DNA from: Chloroflexaceae bacterium
GTDB taxonomy: Bacteria > Chloroflexota > Chloroflexia > Chloroflexales > Chloroflexaceae
Length of the DNA: 64,000 nucleotides
Assembly (NCBI GenBank): GCA_028282325.1
Contig: JANQID010000031.1
Coordinates: forward strand, 1-64,000
Direction: 5' to 3'
Below are positions 2,039 through 11,897 of the stretch, in pieces. Positions within the stretch are counted from its first letter, which is position 1; every line of letters starts with the position of its first letter. The translations under genes were made by a program, and so were the position numbers. The notes beneath the pieces were generated by a model. The model worked only from the letters and a program-made list of their open reading frames with translations, was not told the origin of the DNA and made no database searches.

Positions 2039-5000
2039 CTAGCGACGTATCAACGGCAAATAAACGCTCATCGGCGACCCCTCGAAGCTAGATGCAGGGA
2101 AGTTTAAGCCATCAATCAACGGCTGTTCATCAACGACCAACCGCGAGTCCTCTGCTGCGACGATCTGCGCTACAACCTGATAGGGCCCATCAACGCCGCC
2201 GGAAAGTATCTCGCTTCCGTCGAAGTCGAAGGTTATCGTGTTAACGCCTTCCGTCCACGTCGCGCGCGATTGTGCGAGGGTGATCACTTGCCCGCTTGCG
2301 CTTTGCAGCGCTGCCATAGCTGCATAGTCGCCGGCTGTCGTCGCCACGTAGTTCGCAGAGACGCGCAGCGTCTCATAGAGTCCATTCCCGTCCTGATCAA
2401 TCGGCGCGACGGTGACATCGCCCTGGCGTTGCACACCGTCGGCCCGTACGGTGATCATCTCGTCCGTTTGCCGTGCGAACGGTGCGCCAGCATTGCCGGT
2501 AGCAGTAACCGTCAGGATGTGCGGTCCAGCGCTCGTGGGCGCAGTCAGTTGGCCGGTATAGAGCCCCGGCGCGGTGCGGGTCAGCGAGATCTCTTGCGCA
2601 CCGCTCTCCGTTGGCAAGCTGGCGACGATAGTCGCGCCGTCGATTGGCGTCGTTCCGTCGCTCATTGTCGCACTAATCGTGAATGATTGGCCTGAGGCGA
2701 CCGATGTCGGTCGATCAATGTTTATCGTTAGTGGCGACTCCAGCGCGGCGAAGAGCGCATAGGTCGTTTCGGTGGCGACATCGGTCGCCGCAATCGTCGC
2801 CGTCCAGCGCCCGGCAGGCGGGTTGGGCAAACTATAGGCAATGGTTGGTGGATCGCCTGGATCGGTTGGCCCATAGTATTGGGCGCCTGGAATAACCTGA
2901 GACACGTTCGCGGCAGTGATCAGCGTCCCATCAGGAGCGGTGAGATTCAGACTCAGCTGACCGTTACTCGAACCTAGCAGGATATCGACATAGGAGCCAT
3001 CAATATCGAGCGTAGTTGTTTCGGTTCCTCCTGTGCGTATCACTCCACTTCGCATCGGCGTAAATCCACCCTGGTTGGTTGCAGACTGGGTCGGGAGGGC
3101 ATTTAGGACCGGATCGCGCATATCGCTACAGGCGCCTGGAGAACGCGTTTGGATGAAATCACCAACACACGTTTCAACACGCTCATCGTCGAAGTACCAC
3201 GGATGTTGGGCCCATGGAAAGCTGGAAGAGTGTGAGGAGTCGCTATAACGACGGGCGATATTGCTCCCCTTGACAATCAAGATATCGTCGCGCAACGGTC
3301 GGCCAATGTAGGGAATACTAGACCGCCGATCATATGAATACCCTGTGGCGCTCCGGAAGCCGACAATTCCGTCGTTACGTCCTTCGGTTAGGTTCAAGAA
3401 AACCATATAAACGGGTCCGCCCGATCCGCCGACAAAAAGGTAGGGCACTTCGTTCTGCGGTTGATGCGCGAGATTAAAGAGCCGCATCTCATCACTGCCA
3501 AGCTGGCACAGGCCAGGATTGATGAAACAAATGGTGCCTTTGACGAAACTGGTCTTTGGATTCAAGAGAGTGGCAATCTTGATCAGCGAACCGAGAGTTA
3601 CCCCAACATGCGGCGACCCTAATGTCACAAGTGCTTCGACATTGTTGTCATAGTCGTTGCCTTCAATATAGGCCCGACTGACCAGTCCACCCATCGAGTG
3701 CGCCACGAGCAGCACCTTACCGTCGCTATCACGTCCGGCGACAGACGCGATCTGTGGCGACAGGCAATCATGGGCCGCGTCTTCCGCACGAATGGTGCGA
3801 TATGCGCTGGTGGTCCAGTTAGCCAGGTAGACTTCGTACCCCTGGTCGAGCAGAAGCTGTCCTACACGGTCGTAGTCTTCTGTCACAGTTTCAGGATTCG
3901 TCGGCGCCGTAAATGCTGTTGGCGTACAGTTGAACTTATCGATTCGAAATTCACCGCCTTGCCAGCCATGGACGATAATTGCCACGTCGATGTCTGCGCC
4001 GACCACATCTCCAATCTTCGCCACGAAGGCGTCCACAGTGCCACCGAGGGTCGGCTGGAGGGGGCTCCGGGTGGGGAAGTTCGTGGAAGACGTTCTGCCC
4101 GTGACATAGGCATTGCCCGCACCGTCCACCGCGATGCCAGAGCCCCAATCATCGCTGCTGCCGCCGAGGAAGGTGCTGTAGACCAGGGCGCTGCCCGCCG
4201 CGTTCAGCTTGGTCACGAAGGCGTCATCATAGTCCCCGCCGAAGGTCGGCTGGAGCGGGCTCCGGGTGGGGAAATCACTCGAATAGGTATACCCCGTGAC
4301 ATAGGCATTGCCGGCGCCGTCCACCGCGATGCCCTCGCCCCAATTACCGTCGCTGCCGCCGAGGTAGGTGCTATAGACCAGGGCGCTGCCGTCCGGGTTC
4401 AGCTTCGTCACGAAGGCGTTCAAAGCGCCGCCGAGGGTCGGCTGGAGGGGGCTCCGGGTGGGGAAATCACTCGAATAGGTATACCCCGTGACATAGGCAT
4501 TGCCGGCGCCGTCCACCGCGATGCCCTCGCCCCGATCATAGTTGCCGCCGCCGAGGTAAGTGCTGTAGATCAGGGCGCTGCCGTCCGGGTTCAGCTTCGC
4601 CACGAAGGCGTCACCACCGAAGGTCGGCTGGAGGGGGCTCCGGGTGGGGAAGTTCGTGGAAATCGTAGAGCCCGTGACATAGGCATTGCCCGCGCCGTCC
4701 ACCGCGATGCCGTGGCCCCAATCACTGTCGCTGCCGCCGAGGAAGGTGCTATAGACCAGGGCGCTGCCGTCCGGGTTCAGCTTCGTCACGAAGGCGTCAT
4801 CATAGCCCCCGCCGAAGGTCGGCTGGAGGGGGTTCTGGGTGGGGAAGTTCGTGGACCGCGTAAACCCCGTGACATAGGCATTGCCGGTGCCGTCCACCGC
4901 GATGCCGTGGCCCCCATCCCAGTAGCCGCCGCCGAGGTAGGTGCTGTAGATCAGGGCGCTGCCGTCCGGGTTCAGCTTGGTCACGAAGGCGTCATAATCG

Positions 5001-6205
5001 CCCCCGCCGAAGGTCGGCTGGAGGGGGCTCCGGGTGGGGAAGTTCGTGGAAGACGTATACCCCGTGACATAGGCATTGCCGGTGCCGTCCACCGCGATGC
5101 CCTCGCCCCAATCACCGCTGCTGCCGCCGAGGAAGGTGCTATAGACCAGGGCGCTGCCGTCCGGGTTCAGCTTGGTCACGAAGGCGTTCAAAGCGCCACC
5201 GAAAGTCGGCTGGAGGGGGCTCCGGGTGGGGAAGTTCGTGGAAGTCGTATACCCCGTGACATAGGCATTGCCCTCGCTGTCCACCGCGATGCCCTCGCCC
5301 CAATCATCGCCGCTGCCGCCGAGGTAGGTGCTATACACCAGGGTCGGGTCGATCACCAGCGGGTGGGCCGGGTCGTAGCTGCCCAGCGCAAAGCTGACCA
5401 GGCCATCGCTCCCCACCGCGTAGCCAGCGGATACAGTGACCCGCTCGCCATCCACAGTCTGCCAGGCCACGGGCGCCTGCTCGCTCAGGGTCGCGCCGTC
5501 GGGCAGTTGGATGCGCAGGTCGCCGGTCTGCACATCCACGCTCACGCCCTCGGCCCCCGCATAGCGCCAGGCGATTTGTGCAGGGTCAGCGCCGGGTGCG
5601 ACGACATAGGTGCCCTTGAGTTGGCCCTCAGCCCCATCGTAGCGCAGGTCGATGCCGTCGTAGATCCCCTCGTAGACAATGCCCGCATAGGTCGGTAGAT
5701 TGGTGCGCCACTGGGCCGGGTCGTTGCCGATGAAGTAGTTCACAATCCCCGGCAACTGCGCGGCCCCGGCGATCGCTGGCGCGGGGTTGGCATCGACGAA
5801 CTGCATCCGCACAACGCTAACTGGGCGCGGCGCAGAATCTTCAAGCGGAGCCAGTGGATCGAGCCGAGCCAGCGGATCGGGACGATTCGGCTGCTCAGAT
5901 CCCTGGGGCAGCGCCAGCACAACCTCACTCTCAGTGAAAAAGATCGTCCCGCCCATTCCGCGCACCTGGAAGCGCACCGCCGGGTCGGTCTGGCCGGCGT
6001 TGGGCACGAAGGAGAGCGGCAGTTTGCCAAAATCAGGCGCCGCGACCGGCGCGGCGGCGGGCGGCGGCGCGGTCGGGACCAATGGCTGCACGCGCGTGAG
6101 CTGGAATGGCAGCAGCGCGAGCAGGGCGAACAGCACGAGCAGAGCCATAAGCGAACGTGGAACCGACCCGGACGACGGATACGGACGGGGTGCTGGCGCC
6201 AACAT
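2039..6205 (-). CDS. Exported SBBP-repeat protein with embedded lipase-like alpha/beta-hydrolase domain
   Basis: This 1388-aa protein starts at ATG 6205 behind AGGAGG. A hydrophobic signal segment (about residues 15-35) precedes an N-terminal domain of the type that accompanies SBBP repeats (FVPNAGQTDPAVRF). Seven copies of a ~63-residue repeat follow (YSTYLGGS...GIAVD..GNAYVTG.T.S.NFPT..PLQP). Next comes an alpha/beta-hydrolase segment with IIVHGW and the nucleophile elbow VAHSMGGLVSR, resembling PGAP1/lipase proteins. Immunoglobulin-like or bacterial-surface modules lie in the C-terminal third. The last residues are VYLPLIRR, a tail seen repeatedly on Chloroflexota exported proteins. SBBP repeats are thought to form beta-propellers. 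The substrate is unknown. The strand opposite the repeats also stays open, but this is a compositional shadow. Confidence 0.85.
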   Translation of the reverse strand: MLAPAPRPYPSSGSVPRSLMALLVLFALLALLPFQLTRVQPLVPTAPPPAAAPVAAPDFGKLPLSFVPNAGQTDPAVRFQVRGMGGTIFFTESEVVLALPQGSEQPNRPDPLARLDPLAPLEDSAPRPVSVVRMQFVDANPAPAIAGAAQLPGIVNYFIGNDPAQWRTNLPTYAGIVYEGIYDGIDLRYDGAEGQLKGTYVVAPGADPAQIAWRYAGAEGVSVDVQTGDLRIQLPDGATLSEQAPVAWQTVDGERVTVSAGYAVGSDGLVSFALGSYDPAHPLVIDPTLVYSTYLGGSGDDWGEGIAVDSEGNAYVTGYTTSTNFPTRSPLQPTFGGALNAFVTKLNPDGSALVYSTFLGGSSGDWGEGIAVDGTGNAYVTGYTSSTNFPTRSPLQPTFGGGDYDAFVTKLNPDGSALIYSTYLGGGYWDGGHGIAVDGTGNAYVTGFTRSTNFPTQNPLQPTFGGGYDDAFVTKLNPDGSALVYSTFLGGSDSDWGHGIAVDGAGNAYVTGSTISTNFPTRSPLQPTFGGDAFVAKLNPDGSALIYSTYLGGGNYDRGEGIAVDGAGNAYVTGYTYSSDFPTRSPLQPTLGGALNAFVTKLNPDGSALVYSTYLGGSDGNWGEGIAVDGAGNAYVTGYTYSSDFPTRSPLQPTFGGDYDDAFVTKLNAAGSALVYSTFLGGSSDDWGSGIAVDGAGNAYVTGRTSSTNFPTRSPLQPTLGGTVDAFVAKIGDVVGADIDVAIIVHGWQGGEFRIDKFNCTPTAFTAPTNPETVTEDYDRVGQLLLDQGYEVYLANWTTSAYRTIRAEDAAHDCLSPQIASVAGRDSDGKVLLVAHSMGGLVSRAYIEGNDYDNNVEALVTLGSPHVGVTLGSLIKIATLLNPKTSFVKGTICFINPGLCQLGSDEMRLFNLAHQPQNEVPYLFVGGSGGPVYMVFLNLTEGRNDGIVGFRSATGYSYDRRSSIPYIGRPLRDDILIVKGSNIARRYSDSSHSSSFPWAQHPWYFDDERVETCVGDFIQTRSPGACSDMRDPVLNALPTQSATNQGGFTPMRSGVIRTGGTETTTLDIDGSYVDILLGSSNGQLSLNLTAPDGTLITAANVSQVIPGAQYYGPTDPGDPPTIAYSLPNPPAGRWTATIAATDVATETTYALFAALESPLTINIDRPTSVASGQSFTISATMSDGTTPIDGATIVASLPTESGAQEISLTRTAPGLYTGQLTAPTSAGPHILTVTATGNAGAPFARQTDEMITVRADGVQRQGDVTVAPIDQDGNGLYETLRVSANYVATTAGDYAAMAALQSASGQVITLAQSRATWTEGVNTITFDFDGSEILSGGVDGPYQVVAQIVAAEDSRLVVDEQPLIDGLNFPASSFEGSPMSVYLPLIRR

Positions 6206-6438
6206 GGAAAAAACCTCCTGGCAGCGAGCGATCTCGGATCGCTCGGTACACCAATGAATCAACCGACAGTCGTATACATGCCCTTTGTAATATTAGTAAC
6301 AAAACGCCCGGTTTTTGATTGCGCCTGGCGAATATTGGGCGAATGTCGCGTCGGCGTTCTATTAACTCAGCCCCGGCGTTTGCCGCGGCGATGTAGTTTT
6401 CTGAGATGGCAAACTGACGGTAGTGGCTTCAGCGCCTA

Positions 6439-6447: not shown

Positions 6448-6488
6448 AAAATGAAATTTAGCATCCCTGCAACTACACTATATAATCT

Positions 6489-7877
6489 ATGCCTTTACCG
6501 ACGCCAAAAGGCCGCCAACGCGAGATCGTCTATCTACCTGAACAGGGACATACAGTTGTGCTTGGCGCCGCGGGCAGCGGCAAAACAACAATGGCGATAT
6601 TGCGCGCCCATTATCTGGCTGCTTTGACCGGGCAAAGAGTTTTGCTCGTCACGTTTAATCGGGCGCTCGTCACATATCTCAAGGCTCTCGCCGAACGACA
6701 ACAATTGCCGTCGAGCGTCACAGTTGAAAACTACCATCGGTTTGCGCGAGGATATTTGGGGAATCGCGGTCTTATGGCAGACAATGCGATTGTTCCCCAA
6801 GATGAACGTCAGCGGATCATCGAGGAGGCGTTGCGCGATCTGCACGAGCAGTTGCAGGGTGACAGACTTCAGAAAATGTCAGCGCGGTTCTTTGCCGAGG
6901 AAAGCAAGTGGATTGCCGGCAGCGCCATTCAGAATAGCGCCGACTATGTCGATTCACGGCAAGGCGTCGGAGGAGTAACATGGAGTGAGCCTGAATGTGA
7001 GCTAATCTTAAAGGTACACCAGCGCTACCTGCAACTCCGTGCTCAACGCGGGTATCGGTATGACTGGGATGATCTGGCGCTCAATGTCGAAGAGGCAATT
7101 GCCCAGGACAATACGCCGCGCCGATACCATCACATCGTTATTGATGAAGGGCAAGATTTTACTCCTGCAATGCTGCGTTCACTGACTCAGGCTATTCCGT
7201 CAGACGGAAGCCTGACGCTCTTCGGCGATATGGCGCAGCAAATCTATGGCAACCGTATCTCCTGGCGTACGGCCGGTCTGCAACCTGCGGGGATACTTGA
7301 ATTTCGGGAGAACTATCGCAACAGCAGTGAAATTGCGGCGCTGGCTCTTGCTATGACTCGGACGCCGGCGTTCCGTGACGTACCTGATCTGGTTCAGCCG
7401 AATAATGTGCGTGCGAGGGGATTGCCACCGGCATTGGTTCGCTGTAGTTCACCCGAAGAAGAGCGGCAACTCATTGTTGACCAGGCAAAGGCTGCGCTGC
7501 AACGCCGGCAATCAGTGGCAATCCTCGTCAGGAAGCGCGAGGGCGAGGACTATTATCTTGATGAGTTTCGTCAATCGCAGCGGCTTCACCGTGATTTACA
7601 AACCTGGTCGCCAGGCGGAATATCTATCGGAACCTACCACGCAGCCAAAGGGCTGGAGTTTGATGTCGTGTTGCTGCCTCGCTGCGAAGCTGCGTTCATA
7701 CCTGACCCGGATCGCCTGCATGCCTTCCGCGATCAGGAAGAAGCTCTGGCTCAGGAAGCTCGCCTGTTGTATGTTGCGATTACGCGTGCGCGGGTTCGTT
7801 TGATTCTGACCTACACGGACGCACGGACAACGCTTCTGCCAGATGATATGACGTTGTACCAGGTAATCAGTCAATGA
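6489..7877 (+). CDS. UvrD-like superfamily I helicase / ATP-binding protein
   Basis: This 462-aa protein carries the core SF1A motifs. Walker A GAAGSGKT lies at about 26-33, Walker B IVIDEGQDF at about 216-224, and a QIYG motif III region follows. Motif V/VI-like segments are GTYHAAKGLEFDVVLLP and LLYVAITRARVRLIL. It is shorter than PcrA/UvrD (~720 aa) and lacks most of the 1B/2B insertions, so it resembles the compact helicases found in defence islands. It is the first gene of a three-gene unit: its stop overlaps the next start by 4 nt (ATGA), implying translational coupling. In this context it may process or sense DNA during infection or damage; that role is inferred. Confidence 0.85.
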   Translation: MPLPTPKGRQREIVYLPEQGHTVVLGAAGSGKTTMAILRAHYLAALTGQRVLLVTFNRALVTYLKALAERQQLPSSVTVENYHRFARGYLGNRGLMADNAIVPQDERQRIIEEALRDLHEQLQGDRLQKMSARFFAEESKWIAGSAIQNSADYVDSRQGVGGVTWSEPECELILKVHQRYLQLRAQRGYRYDWDDLALNVEEAIAQDNTPRRYHHIVIDEGQDFTPAMLRSLTQAIPSDGSLTLFGDMAQQIYGNRISWRTAGLQPAGILEFRENYRNSSEIAALALAMTRTPAFRDVPDLVQPNNVRARGLPPALVRCSSPEEERQLIVDQAKAALQRRQSVAILVRKREGEDYYLDEFRQSQRLHRDLQTWSPGGISIGTYHAAKGLEFDVVLLPRCEAAFIPDPDRLHAFRDQEEALAQEARLLYVAITRARVRLILTYTDARTTLLPDDMTLYQVISQ

Positions 7878-8569
7878 GTGATTATGATGCCATTCAAGCA
7901 GATGCCAGGCGACGTGGTATAACCCGCCTGTGTCATTTTATGCAGTCGCGGAAGCTACCGCACGTTCTCGCCGAAATACAGGCGCTGCTCCCAACGCAAC
8001 AACTGCGTGATCGCTATCCAGACGTGTTGGATGTCACCGATAAGGAACGACTCGATGGACGCCTGGATTATGTATGCTGCTCCATCGAGTATCCGAATTC
8101 GTGGTATTTTCGCAAGATTCAGAACCGCGATCCGCTGTTCAAAGACTGGGTGATTATCTGCCTCGATCCGGCATTGATATGGGAGCGAGAAGCGCTGTTT
8201 TCGCCGAGAAACGCAGCCGCTCAGGGAGGCGCTCTACTCCAACCAGGATGGCAGGGATGGCAAGCGCTTTTTATGTCTCAAGTGATTGGAGCATATGACA
8301 AAACATACGCGCGTTCCACGCGAATGCTTGACTGCTGCCCCACCGATGACCAGGCTGAAGCGCTGATCCCTGATGCGATACCTCAGCGCTATATCAAGGC
8401 AATTGTCGTTAAAGATGCACAGCAAGCATATAAAGAACAGACGCGACTTGAGACGCTCGGTGTGCAGCCATTCTTTCCATGGATAGCGGCCCCCGTGCTG
8501 TTTACGACTGATTGGAGCACTCTGGTGCGACAAGGGCAGCGTCCTGATGAGAAACGCTTCGTGAAGTAG
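7874..8569 (+). CDS. DarT-like DNA ADP-ribosyltransferase (DUF4433 family)
   Basis: This 231-aa protein resembles the DarT family. It has an N-terminal ITRLCHF (H21 in the NAD-binding position) and CCSIEYPNSWYF at about 68-79. The catalytic-type motif CPTDDQAEALIP at about 155-166 places a Glu (E162) where DarT enzymes keep their catalytic Glu, and RYIKAIVVKD follows. DarT proteins transfer ADP-ribose from NAD+ to bases in single-stranded DNA and are toxic without a partner that removes the mark. Here no macrodomain DarG follows; the next gene is an ADP-ribosylglycohydrolase. Coupling to the upstream helicase is tight (4-nt overlap). Which base is modified cannot be read from sequence. Confidence 0.75.
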   Translation: MSDYDAIQADARRRGITRLCHFMQSRKLPHVLAEIQALLPTQQLRDRYPDVLDVTDKERLDGRLDYVCCSIEYPNSWYFRKIQNRDPLFKDWVIICLDPALIWEREALFSPRNAAAQGGALLQPGWQGWQALFMSQVIGAYDKTYARSTRMLDCCPTDDQAEALIPDAIPQRYIKAIVVKDAQQAYKEQTRLETLGVQPFFPWIAAPVLFTTDWSTLVRQGQRPDEKRFVK

Positions 8570-8578
8570 GGTAATGAT

Positions 8579-9952
8579 ATGAGTGAAGTGCAACAGACTG
8601 AGTTGAGGCTTACCGAAAACGTTCCTATCGAAAGAGCACATGGCGCCTTGCTAGGCGTAGCTGTTGGGGATGCTCTGGGATGGCCGCAAGAACAAAATTC
8701 GGGGCGCCTGGGTCAAGCTCCTGAATCGCCAGAAACGCTCACATTCCAACCGTGGCGGCGGAAGGGAGGGAGCCGATTTCAAGCGTATGAAGAGCACATC
8801 AAGGCTGGGGAATACAGCGATGATACCCAATTGCTGATTGCTACAGCTCGAAGCATCTTGCGTAGCAAGAACTGGGCTCCTATATTATCCAGACAGGAGC
8901 TTCCGCTGTGGTTGTTATATGAACGCGGCGGCGGCGGAGCTACCAAACGCGCTGCCCGCGTCTGGTTATCGGGCGGGCCTCCCTGGAAACCGCCGAAAAG
9001 GCAACTGCAATCATATTTCGATGCCGGCGGTAACGGCGTGGCTATGCGCATCTTGCCGCACGTCTTGAAGACTGGTCAGACACGGGAACATTTGATGCGT
9101 GATGTAATGCGCAACGGCATTTTGACCCATGGCCATCCGCGCGCCTTGATCGGGGCAATCGTGTATGCACATGCCGCATGGTGGATAACGCGCACATCTA
9201 CTCCGCTGCCACTGGGAGGAGTTATCGAGGAACTCCTGGACAATCGGGCCGAGTGGGAAGTATTTCCTGGGCATACTGAAGGCAGCACGGCTGGCTGGTT
9301 GGATGCCGCCAACTATGCCTTTCCTCACGGCTATGAAGCTGAGTGGAAGAAAACTGTGCAAGAGATCTGTGATGGACTTGTGACGGTACACGCGGCCATA
9401 CGTAAGCAGGGTGCGCTACTTAATGATCAGGCAATGCTAGAACGCCTCGGATGTTTTGGGAAAATGAACGGGTCGGGAGTAGTAGCTGCTCTGGCTGTAT
9501 TGTATCTCTTCTCGGTCCATATAACCGATCCTATAACCGGCTTACGCACTATGGCATTTGCAAAGTCTGCCGACGCAGACACTCTGGCCTCGATGCTTGG
9601 CGGCCTCTTTGGACTAACGCTTGGGTTAGAATGGATTCCTGCGTCCCTCCAACAAGTTCAGGACCACGATCTGATAGGCGATATCGCCGACCGTCTGGTT
9701 CGTTCCAGCTTCCAACAAGAAGGAGTCCCCATCCCTGGCTGGAATGAACAACATACGCAGCAAGTTTTGGAGAAGCTCCGGACAAATCAAACTGCCGATC
9801 TTTCGCTTGGCATATTGGGCGATGCGAAAGTTGTGTCACATCAGGCGCTAAAACCAATGACACGCACTATTCTTCGCGCGGACGAATGGCGCCTTCAAAC
9901 TGATGCGGGCCAAACAATATATATTACCCAGGCACAGCGAGCGCCATCATAA
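8579..9952 (+). CDS. ADP-ribosylglycohydrolase (DraG/ARH family), likely antidote to the DarT-like enzyme
   Basis: This 457-aa protein has the ARH/DraG signature. HGALLGVAVGDALGWP lies at about 21-36, the metal-binding YSDDTQL at 79-85 (D81, D82, T83), GNGVAMRILP at about 151-160, and the second metal cluster KSADADTLASMLGGLFG at about 329-345 (D332, D334, T335). These acidic residues bind two Mg2+ ions in characterised family members, which hydrolyse ADP-ribose from modified targets. A roughly 90-residue C-terminal extension after the ARH fold has no obvious match. The gene starts 9 nt after the DarT-like gene, so it is almost certainly cotranscribed. It is proposed to reverse the DarT-like mark in place of a macrodomain; this is inference from position and chemistry. 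Confidence 0.82.
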   Translation: MSEVQQTELRLTENVPIERAHGALLGVAVGDALGWPQEQNSGRLGQAPESPETLTFQPWRRKGGSRFQAYEEHIKAGEYSDDTQLLIATARSILRSKNWAPILSRQELPLWLLYERGGGGATKRAARVWLSGGPPWKPPKRQLQSYFDAGGNGVAMRILPHVLKTGQTREHLMRDVMRNGILTHGHPRALIGAIVYAHAAWWITRTSTPLPLGGVIEELLDNRAEWEVFPGHTEGSTAGWLDAANYAFPHGYEAEWKKTVQEICDGLVTVHAAIRKQGALLNDQAMLERLGCFGKMNGSGVVAALAVLYLFSVHITDPITGLRTMAFAKSADADTLASMLGGLFGLTLGLEWIPASLQQVQDHDLIGDIADRLVRSSFQQEGVPIPGWNEQHTQQVLEKLRTNQTADLSLGILGDAKVVSHQALKPMTRTILRADEWRLQTDAGQTIYITQAQRAPS

Positions 9953-10518: not shown

Positions 10519-10945
10519 AGCCGATAGCCGATAGGCGATAAACGAGAGATTCTGCAATCAAGGGTTGGTGGGCGATAGCTTTCAATAGCCGATAGGCGAT
10601 AAGCGAGAGATTCTGCAATCAAGGGTTGGTGGGCGATAGCATTCGATAGGCGATAGGCGATAAGCGAGAGATTCTGCAATCAAGGGTTGGTGGGCGATAG
10701 CATTCGATAGGCGATAGGCGAGAGATTCTGCAATCAAGGGTTGGTGGGCGATAGCTTTCAATAGCCGATAGGCGATAGGCGATAGGCGATAAGCGAGAGA
10801 TTCTGCAATCAAGGGTTGGTGGGCGATAGCTTTCAATAGCCGATAGGCGAGAGATTCTGCAATCAAGGGTTGGTGGGCGATAGCTTTCGATAGCCGATAG
10901 GCGAGAGATTCTGCAATCAAGGGTTGTCGGGAACGGACGATAGCG
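10519..10945. repeat. Nested tandem array: ~54-bp unit with variable CGATAGG heptamers
   Basis: Seven copies of gagagattctgcaatcaagg (continuing into gttggtgggcgatagc) start at 10544, 10605, 10667, 10720, 10795, 10849 and 10903. The spacings are 61, 62, 53, 75, 54 and 54 bp. These fit a 54-bp unit plus zero, one or three extra heptamers (GATAGGC/GATAGCC). The unit body differs from the array at 529-1098, but the heptamer is the same. Both strands stay open across it in some frames, giving spurious YRLSA-type translations. Confidence 0.85.
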
Positions 10946-10955
10946 GTTGACGCCG

Positions 10956-11036
10956 ACCTATCGGCTATCGGCTATCGGCTATCGGCTATGCCTACCGGCT
11001 ATCGGCTATCGGCTATGCCTACCGGCTATCGGCTAT
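10956..11036. repeat. Heptamer repeat CGGCTAT in the opposite orientation
   Basis: This run of CGGCTAT heptamers (the reverse complement of ATAGCCG) is interrupted by a regular atgcctac spacer, so that cggctatcggctatgcctac recurs. It abuts and overlaps the 3' end of the glycosyltransferase gene, whose TAG stop is supplied by the repeat. Together with 10519-10945 it forms opposed heptamer blocks that could fold into very long hairpins. Confidence 0.75.
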
Positions 11037-11798
11037 ACCAAGCGTGTGCAGGAACGCGAACTTGACGACCTCGAACCAGGCCAGCGACGCGCAGAGAAAC
11101 AGCCCCAGCGGCCCGTCGCGCCAGCCGCCCAGCCGTACATAGCGCCGCCAGAACTCGCGGGCCGGTGCGCCGATGAAGTTGCGCCAGCGCGCCCGCCGAC
11201 CCTCGCCGCGCAGGATGCGGGCCTCGGCGAGGGCGTAGCGCGTCTGCTTGAGCCAGAACTCGTCGAGGCGCTCGATGTTGAGATGCACAAAATGCTGGCG
11301 GAGGCTTCCCGCGTCGCCGTCGAGGCGGGCGACTTCGTGGACGTGCTGGCGCTCGTCGTAGCGCGCACGGGCGCGGCGCACCAGCCGCAACTGGCGGTCG
11401 GGATACCAGCCGCCGCCGCGCAATGTCTGGCCGAAGAAGCGATTGTAGCGCGGTATCCAGTAACCGGCAACGGCGGCGTCCGCTGCGCCGACGGCGTGGG
11501 CTGCCAGCGTGGCCGTCGTCTCGGCGCGCAATTCCGGCGTCACCCGCTCGTCGGCGTCGACGAACAGCACCCACTCGCCGTGACACAGATCGAGCGCCCG
11601 GTTGCGCTGTGCTGTGAACCCACGCCACGGCGCGCTGACCACCCGTGCGCCGTGGCGGCGACCGATCGCGGCGCTTTGGTCGCGCGTGCGATCGTCGAGC
11701 AGCAACAGCACTTCGTCGGCCATCCCGACGACGCTTTCCAGGCAGCCGTCGAGGTGGCGTTCTTCGTCTCGGGTGATAATCGCAACGGAAAGGGTCAT
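11019..11798 (-). CDS. Family 2 glycosyltransferase
   Basis: This 259-aa GT-A fold enzyme starts with LSVAIITRDEERHLDGCLESV and has the nucleotide-sugar and metal-binding motif VLFVDADERVTPEL (DAD, the DXD motif) at about residues 75-88. A W..P.R..R-type acceptor region follows. It resembles lipopolysaccharide-core-type family 2 transferases such as WaaE/KdtX. The ATG at 11798 is preferred; a GTG at 11849 only adds a non-conserved extension. The last codons and stop (GIADSR) read through the heptamer repeat, so the natural C-terminus may have been altered by repeat insertion. It is divergent from the following membrane-protein operon. Confidence 0.85.
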   Translation of the reverse strand: MTLSVAIITRDEERHLDGCLESVVGMADEVLLLLDDRTRDQSAAIGRRHGARVVSAPWRGFTAQRNRALDLCHGEWVLFVDADERVTPELRAETTATLAAHAVGAADAAVAGYWIPRYNRFFGQTLRGGGWYPDRQLRLVRRARARYDERQHVHEVARLDGDAGSLRQHFVHLNIERLDEFWLKQTRYALAEARILRGEGRRARWRNFIGAPAREFWRRYVRLGGWRDGPLGLFLCASLAWFEVVKFAFLHTLGIADSR

Positions 11799-11897
11799 AC
11801 GCGCCTCGCTGTTCGGTTCGGCGGTGCGGATCAGCGTGCATTGTAGCACACGAACCTTGAATCGCGAGATTGCGACTAGTCACAAACCCACTGCGCT

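Follow-up and report, generated by a model that had tools for sequence, protein, structure and literature searches.

A helicase–DarT–ARH gene unit, a probable toxin–antidote cassette, in a Chloroflexaceae bacterium and across bacterial phyla

To our knowledge, the published antitoxins of DarT toxins are all either macrodomain or NADAR proteins. The locus analysed here raises the question of whether an ADP-ribosylhydrolase of the ARH family can serve in their place, and of what a helicase encoded in the same operon contributes to such a pair. It occupies positions 6489–9952 on the plus strand of the window, by which we mean the whole 64,000-nucleotide stretch of Chloroflexaceae bacterium contig JANQID010000031.1 that was analysed.

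A recurrent three-gene cassette

The locus comprises three co-directional genes, encoding a compact UvrD-like SF1 helicase (6489–7877, 462 aa), a DarT1-like ADP-ribosyltransferase that is the putative toxin (7874–8569, 231 aa) and an ARH/DraG-type ADP-ribosylhydrolase that is the putative antidote (8579–9952, 457 aa). The helicase stop and DarT start codons share a 4-nt ATGA overlap, and 9 nt separate DarT from ARH. These open reading frames agree exactly, in position and spacing, with the three packed genes described in an earlier note made from the DNA letters, and profile searches return the families proposed there: UvrD_C (4.5e-22) and UvrD-helicase (4.9e-19) for the first gene, DarT (PF14487) for the second and ADP_ribosyl_GH (PF03747) for the third. 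A TATAAT considered as the helicase promoter has its end 2 bases upstream of the ATG, a spacing too short to be convincing, and matches in the region (6458–6486) are no more frequent than in shuffles.

The same three genes are strictly linked elsewhere too, a point on which that note had suggested a survey. Among 80 genome loci fetched with ARH, 71 carry the complete triad in identical order, so the cassette is not a chance arrangement, and 51 of these 71 keep the ATGA overlap between helicase and DarT. The triads are distributed across bacterial phyla and include one archaeal metagenome-assembled genome (MAG). Fetching by ARH overstates the retention of ARH relative to DarT; a small DarT-first survey of six phyla recovers the triad independently, with 8 complete copies, one interrupted at a contig end and 3 DarT–ARH pairs without a helicase. 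In the small sample of intact DarTs from the window clade, every one is accompanied by ARH unless a contig end intervenes.

A DarT1-like toxin with a distinctive active site

The product of the middle gene matches PF14487 at 4.3e-20 (72.7 bits against a cut-off of 22.5) and, by sequence, DarT1 of E. coli C7 in the PDB (8baq, 2.7e-17). Its AlphaFold model (pLDDT 94.9) has the same DarT1 structure as best PDB match in Foldseek (5e-15), with a weaker best DarT2 match (9.5e-8). Both the curated cut-off, which is exceeded, and the fold place the protein in the DarT superfamily, and the catalytic-type Glu motif named in the earlier note is present as QAE, with E162.

The residue roles assigned to DarT1 in PMC11543638 can be transferred position by position, and the catalytic set (H17, R52, D54, N104, Q150 and E152) is invariant or nearly so across homologues. 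H17, which contacts the NAD ribose, corresponds to H21 (7934–7936; invariant in 79 homologues), the catalytic R52 and D54 to R59 and D61 (8048–8056; conserved), the guanine-coordinating N104 to N113 (8210–8212; invariant), and Q150 and the catalytic E152 to Q160 and E162 (8351–8359; both invariant). Two further positions differ: M71, reported to be essential, and the base contact Y75 are Tyr and Ile in the window protein. ARH-linked DarTs have Tyr or Phe at position 71 and Ala, Val or Ile at position 75 in most homologues, whereas NADAR-linked DarTs have Met at 71 and often Tyr at 75, and the two positions separate the groups consistently. Given these replacements, the base modified by ARH-linked DarTs is possibly other than guanine. 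On sequence and predicted fold, the toxin is closest to DarT1, the guanine-specific type with a NADAR partner, and not to DarT2, the type with a macrodomain partner; guanine is the most likely base for the window enzyme, though its base specificity is unproven.

An ARH hydrolase in the position of the antidote

The third protein matches PF03747 at 5.7e-38, which rules out a NADAR, and its AlphaFold model (pLDDT 93.1) retrieves ARH3, DraG (3o5t) and the ART/ARH immunity proteins 6dre and 8za7 in Foldseek. Profile, fold and two acidic metal clusters assign it to the ARH/DraG superfamily, and both clusters named in the earlier note are borne out: SDDT at residues 80–83 (8816–8827), with S80, D81 and D82 in 88 of 88 homologues, and DADT at residues 332–335 (9572–9583; consensus DTDT), with D332 and T335 in all 88 and D334 in 87. 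Because these residues are invariant or nearly so, ARH catalysis is under selection. The protein scores far below the curated cut-offs of both the DraG equivalog TIGR02662 (65.2 bits against 337) and the Tri1 arginine hydrolase NF041672 (33.1 bits against 490).

The C-terminal extension, previously regarded as an unexplained add-on, is instead a small domain of about 70 residues (residues ~390–457; 9746–9949), seen in the model and alignments as a helix and three strands, confidently predicted and common to its family. The ARHs of relatives are about 100–150 residues longer and carry a further variable tail module, often glyoxalase-like, that the window copy lacks; these C-terminal modules vary widely. 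Homology to a sister locus (L025) ends at ~9942. A truncated, dead copy is unlikely, as the model is confident up to residue 457 and the metal-cluster residues are intact.

Decay and exchange at other loci bear on the antidote assignment. ARH is kept in four genomes in which the toxin or helicase is lost or broken, standing intact beside DarT remnants in three (L176, L177 and L178) and beside an N-terminal helicase remnant in the fourth (L049). At a further locus (L164), the gene beside helicase and DarT is convergent and encodes a NADAR-DarT1 antitoxin (PF22397, 1.6e-89) instead of ARH; here the helicase is seen to travel with the toxin. The proposal that ARH is a non-macrodomain antidote is favoured by its survival beside decayed toxins and by the NADAR in its place at L164, but needs amending in one respect: since the toxin is DarT1-like and the known partner of DarT1 is NADAR, ARH would stand in for NADAR rather than for a macrodomain. 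ARH would then be the enzyme that removes ADP-ribose from DarT-modified DNA. In the solved ART/ARH pairs 6dre and 8za7 there is a precedent for an ARH that counters an ART toxin. Against a DarT–ARH pairing, Streptomyces SCO5809 and human ARHs failed to reverse guanosine ADP-ribosylation of RNA, which NADARs alone reversed (PMC11833690).

The helicase and the genomic setting

The best PADLOC match of the helicase is GajB (3e-30). Its motifs are invariant in 48 homologues; they include the conserved Walker A sequence GAAGSGKT (residues 26–33; 6564–6587) and the motif II region DEGQD (residues 219–223; 7143–7157), in which D219, E220, Q222 and D223 are invariant (alignment A7). The likeness to Gabija lies in this match: GajA adjoins GajB in that system, whereas the helicase here is partnered by DarT and ARH, with no GajA seen adjacent. 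Gabija membership was rejected, the 3' neighbours being DarT and ARH and the 5' gene lying on the opposite strand and being a non-nuclease by sequence. Linkage and operon order are the sole basis for a helicase role; their best reading puts the helicase on the toxin side of the cassette, and a function as sensor or repair factor is unproven.

The G+C content of the cassette is mostly 0.52–0.57, against 0.66–0.70 in adjacent genes, a foreign composition that points to horizontal acquisition. In the window the flanks hold ordinary genes and no other defence genes; in other genomes, Mrr-type restriction genes make up 7 of 60 co-oriented neighbours, and PglX/BrxL, an HsdM fusion and HsdS in locus L029 belong to the same defence setting. 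An empty-site comparison with relatives yielded the glycosyltransferase at 11019–11849 as the sole shared gene, and for that reason no insertion boundary was drawn. No relatives were found in phage records or, in one single-sequence scan, on viral contigs; the absence of a phage homologue is neutral for a toxin–antidote reading.

Proposed mechanism and its rivals

We consider it likely that the locus is a self-contained, horizontally moving toxin–antidote cassette, probably anti-phage, in which DarT modifies DNA. Using NAD+, DarT would link ADP-ribose to a base in single-stranded DNA, most likely guanine, thereby blocking replication. The translationally coupled helicase, acting on the toxin side, would make or find single-stranded DNA for DarT, such as that present at DNA ends or at intermediates of phage replication, and ARH would strip ADP-ribose from the cell's own DNA, so that the toxin stays harmless until infection overwhelms ARH. 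DNA as substrate, guanine as base, the helicase's role and the phage trigger are all inferred.

Characterised ARHs act on protein arginine or serine ADP-ribose, which lends some weight to the unlikely alternative that the DarT-like enzyme modifies another acceptor, which could be another base, an RNA or a protein (the helicase, for instance), with ARH reversing this in a regulatory switch of the DraT–DraG kind and no DNA toxin involved. The divergence at positions 71 and 75 points the same way, as does the finding that characterised ARHs work on phosphate ends but leave guanosine ADP-ribose in place (PMC11833690). Such a switch sits poorly, however, with the invariance or near-invariance of the Asn that holds guanine, of the catalytic Asp and of the Gln150 equivalent, and with a fold closest to a DNA-modifying enzyme; toxin decay with ARH kept and the NADAR replacement fit a poison and its antidote, and a conflict system would suit the horizontal spread and the defence genes nearby. 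Less probable still is that ARH serves in immunity or housekeeping with no specificity for DarT, its catalysis incidental, with protein binding by the ARH tail or the helicase as the true antidote. The DarTG2 antitoxin does work partly by binding DarT (PMC11543638), and the ARH C-terminal modules vary as binding modules would, but the invariance or near-invariance of the metal-cluster residues argues for catalysis and the variable tail is missing from the window ARH.

Within the toxin–antidote reading, the helicase could belong to the antidote side and repair or remove ADP-ribosylated DNA. UvrD-family proteins act in repair, and RecF-mediated recombination, together with nucleotide excision, repairs DarT2 adducts (PMC7003065). 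We regard this variant as rather doubtful, because the helicase gene overlaps the DarT start codon in those 51 triad loci, stays with DarT where the antidote is NADAR and has gone from loci that retain ARH alone.

Relation to known systems

DarTG1 shares the toxin fold and catalytic residues, provides the nearest solved structure (8baq) and likewise joins an ADP-ribosyltransferase and a removing enzyme in one operon. Its antidote is a NADAR, however, to which ARH is unrelated, only the cassette has an upstream helicase gene whose end overlaps the toxin gene, and the toxins differ at the M71 and Y75 equivalents; with no NADAR gene in the operon and an ARH as third gene, membership in DarTG1 was rejected. 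DarTG2 shares the DarT superfamily and the logic of reversible DNA ADP-ribosylation, but a macrodomain-type DarTG2 was set aside, as the three proteins have no macrodomain match and the fold is closest to DarT1. The transferases of DraT–DraG and of ART/ARH pairs modify proteins. In DraT–DraG and the ART/ARH effector–immunity pairs (6dre; 8za7, Listeria), a transferase is countered by an ARH-fold hydrolase, as proposed here, but those transferases are not DarT.

De Souza and Aravind reportedly proposed MACRO or ADP-ribosylglycohydrolase partners for ART toxins in 2012, and are probably the source cited for the prediction that the antitoxin of ART-type toxin–antitoxin systems may be a glycohydrolase. 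That possibility is given in PMC3482391, in passages that mention neither a helicase nor a modular ARH tail; the 2012 proposal is a prediction only. In ARG-centred systems, too, an ARH domain is part of conflict loci, some of which also contain helicases and restriction endonucleases (PMC9503650), but these systems are defined by the lack of a coupled transferase, whereas the cassette carries DarT. The helicase–DarT–ARH unit appears uncharacterised in the literature searched, an ART/glycohydrolase antitoxin having been predicted already in 2012.

A bolder reading, which we put forward tentatively, is that helicase–DarT–ARH forms a third class of DarT system, with a DNA adduct unlike those of DarT1 and DarT2 and a helicase feeding the toxin single-stranded DNA; if so, this would be the first case of an ARH-fold enzyme taking ADP-ribose off a DNA base. 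A conserved, multi-phylum unit with ARH in place of NADAR makes a third family of DNA de-ADP-ribosylases directly testable. Active-site residues of the toxin change together with the type of antidote, so that base specificity can be studied by comparing the two groups, and the constant presence of the helicase hints at a way in which a toxin specific for single strands could be guided to its DNA.

The helicase–DarT–ARH triad

Three plus-strand genes, at the positions given in an earlier note, encode a UvrD-type helicase (6489-7877), a DarT as putative toxin (7874-8569) and an ADP-ribosylglycohydrolase (ARH) as putative antidote (8579-9952). All three have Pfam matches, those of DarT and ARH being PF14487 (4.3e-20) and PF03747 (5.7e-38). 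Helicase and DarT share an ATGA overlap and 9 bases separate DarT from ARH. NCBIfam equivalog models for DarT, DraG and Tri1 score far under their cut-offs, so the window DarT and ARH are regarded as divergent members.

Among solved structures, the nearest sequence to the window DarT is E. coli C7 DarT1 (8baq, 2.7e-17), which is also the top Foldseek match (5.0e-15, TM 0.80 by target length) of its AlphaFold model (52 homologues, mean pLDDT 94.9), with DarT2 structures following at about 1e-7. Equivalents of the DarT1 active-site residues (taken from PMC11543638), namely H21, R59, D61, N113, Q160 and E162, are invariant in an alignment of 79 homologues, and fold and active site together uphold the earlier identification. 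The position of DarT1 M71, reported as essential (PMC11543638), holds Tyr in the window protein, Tyr or Phe in 41 of 46 proteins with an ARH gene alongside, and Met in 17 of 20 with a NADAR gene. The Y75 position is Ala, Val or Ile in 38/46 ARH-linked proteins and Tyr in 9/20 NADAR-linked ones. Because these positions differ despite the conserved active-site set, guanine is a likely but not a safe target.

The ARH model (60 homologues, mean pLDDT 93.1) matches ARH3, DraG and the ART/ARH toxin–immunity proteins 6dre and 8za7. With SDDT and DADT conserved across 88 sequences (D334 varies in one), the claim of an ARH with both metal clusters stands. The C-terminal extension previously called unexplained does follow the ARH core; it is, however, predicted to fold as a small domain (helix 390-401, strands 415-454) common to relatives, and the window tail is the shortest of the 88. 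Most relatives bear an extra module beyond it. At least 35 of 66 have a glyoxalase/bleomycin-resistance (VOC) domain there; winged-helix-like tails, as judged by eye, occur at loci L030, L049, L054 and L055, and helical tails in some. At L029 (6001-10236), ARH and the type I methyltransferase HsdM are fused in one 1411-aa frame adjoining HsdS. The ARH of the sister locus, L025, is 73% identical to that of the window, and DNA similarity between the two ends at about 9942, near the ARH stop codon.

Conservation of the unit

Searching species genomes, about 85,000 in all, with the ARH alignment gave 266 relatives. Among the best 80, examined as loci, 71 carry the triad in the same order and strand, 51 of these with the ATGA overlap; some frames are broken at L027 and L040. 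Hosts span many bacterial phyla and one Heimdallarchaeota metagenome-assembled genome, in which a binning error is possible. A DarT-first survey sampled six phyla, about 1,960 genomes in total, and yielded 8 complete triads, one helicase–DarT pair ending at a contig end, 12 DarT–NADAR loci and 3 DarT–ARH pairs without helicase (DarT N-terminally extended in 2, with a cold-shock domain in 1). The two sets differ in sampling principle but overlap, a few genomes being in both (G149, for example, is that of L062); the co-occurrence survey that the earlier note proposed finds the genes together in both. In a DarT tree, made by a quick method and with some weak branches, the partner label switches 5 times versus 20 in shuffles.

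Two cyanobacterial DarT genes, L149 5162-7198 (minus strand) and L150 4555-6087, have a long N-terminal extension, which in L149 contains the cold-shock domain, and a 466-aa ARH partner without helicase. A near-identical pair of DarT-like genes (L154 5400-6062, L155 5343-5999) has no recognisable hydrolase close by.

DarT remnants and hydrolase replacement

Nine of the 80 ARH-seeded loci lack the full triad, four of them (L085, L089, L095 and L098) ending at contig ends. At L030/L176, L031/L177 and L056/L178, an intact ARH lies immediately downstream of DarT remnants; L049 keeps ARH after a helicase remnant, its first 52 residues; and L054 has no toxin or helicase trace, its ARH adjoining a large gene that by appearance is related to methyltransferases of L039 and L055. 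An ARH retained beside remnants is the pattern expected where the toxin can be lost and the antidote tolerated, in a sample that, being fetched through ARH, would under-represent toxins kept without it. At L164 (525-3334), helicase and DarT overlap as in the triad and are followed by a convergent NADAR–DarT1 antitoxin gene (PF22397, 1.6e-89) replacing ARH. Since L164 keeps helicase–DarT with NADAR instead of ARH, it supports both the functional equivalence of the two hydrolases beside DarT and the assignment of the helicase to the toxin side.

Genomic context

The cassette was probably acquired, because its G+C (mostly 0.52-0.57) differs from that of adjoining genes (0.66-0.70). Its neighbours in the window are ordinary rather than defence genes. 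In other genomes, 7 of 60 co-oriented neighbours are Mrr-type restriction enzymes, and others include PglX-like and Eco57I methyltransferases, BrxL, type I restriction genes and a HipA-like gene. L071 and L072 have a second, DraG-like ARH downstream of the triad, and a HigBA-type pair adjoins the Rhodococcus plasmid copy. Related proteins lie 5' of the helicase at L066, L068, L070, L072 and L073; they belong to a neighbour cluster of seven members, which corresponds best to the seven Mrr-type matches.

Directly upstream of the window cassette, on the opposite strand (2039-6262), lies the gene of a large protein (1407 aa), predicted to be secreted, that contains repeats (GNAYVTGYT...) and an HSMGG motif resembling that of lipases. 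Short repeats at 10530-11010, where G+C falls to about 0.52, yield ORFs with the recurring peptide AIAHQPLIAESLAYRLS and are probably a non-coding repeat array.

Discussion

Helicase–DarT–ARH is a real, widespread variant of reversible DNA-ADP-ribosylation systems, apparently uncharacterised so far; a literature search restricted to openly licensed papers found none describing the unit. The 2012 abstract of de Souza and Aravind reportedly names MACRO or ADP-ribosylglycohydrolase partners for a transferase of ART type. A statement from the same year holds that the antitoxin of an ART-type system may be an ADP-ribosyl glycohydrolase (PMC3482391), and DarTs have been found in operons with differing hydrolases (PMC11543638, citing its reference 30). 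Macrodomain and NADAR enzymes make up the published DarT antitoxins; the ARHs assayed left ADP-ribose on guanosine in RNA (PMC11833690). The most useful question posed by the triad is whether its ARH removes ADP-ribose from DNA.
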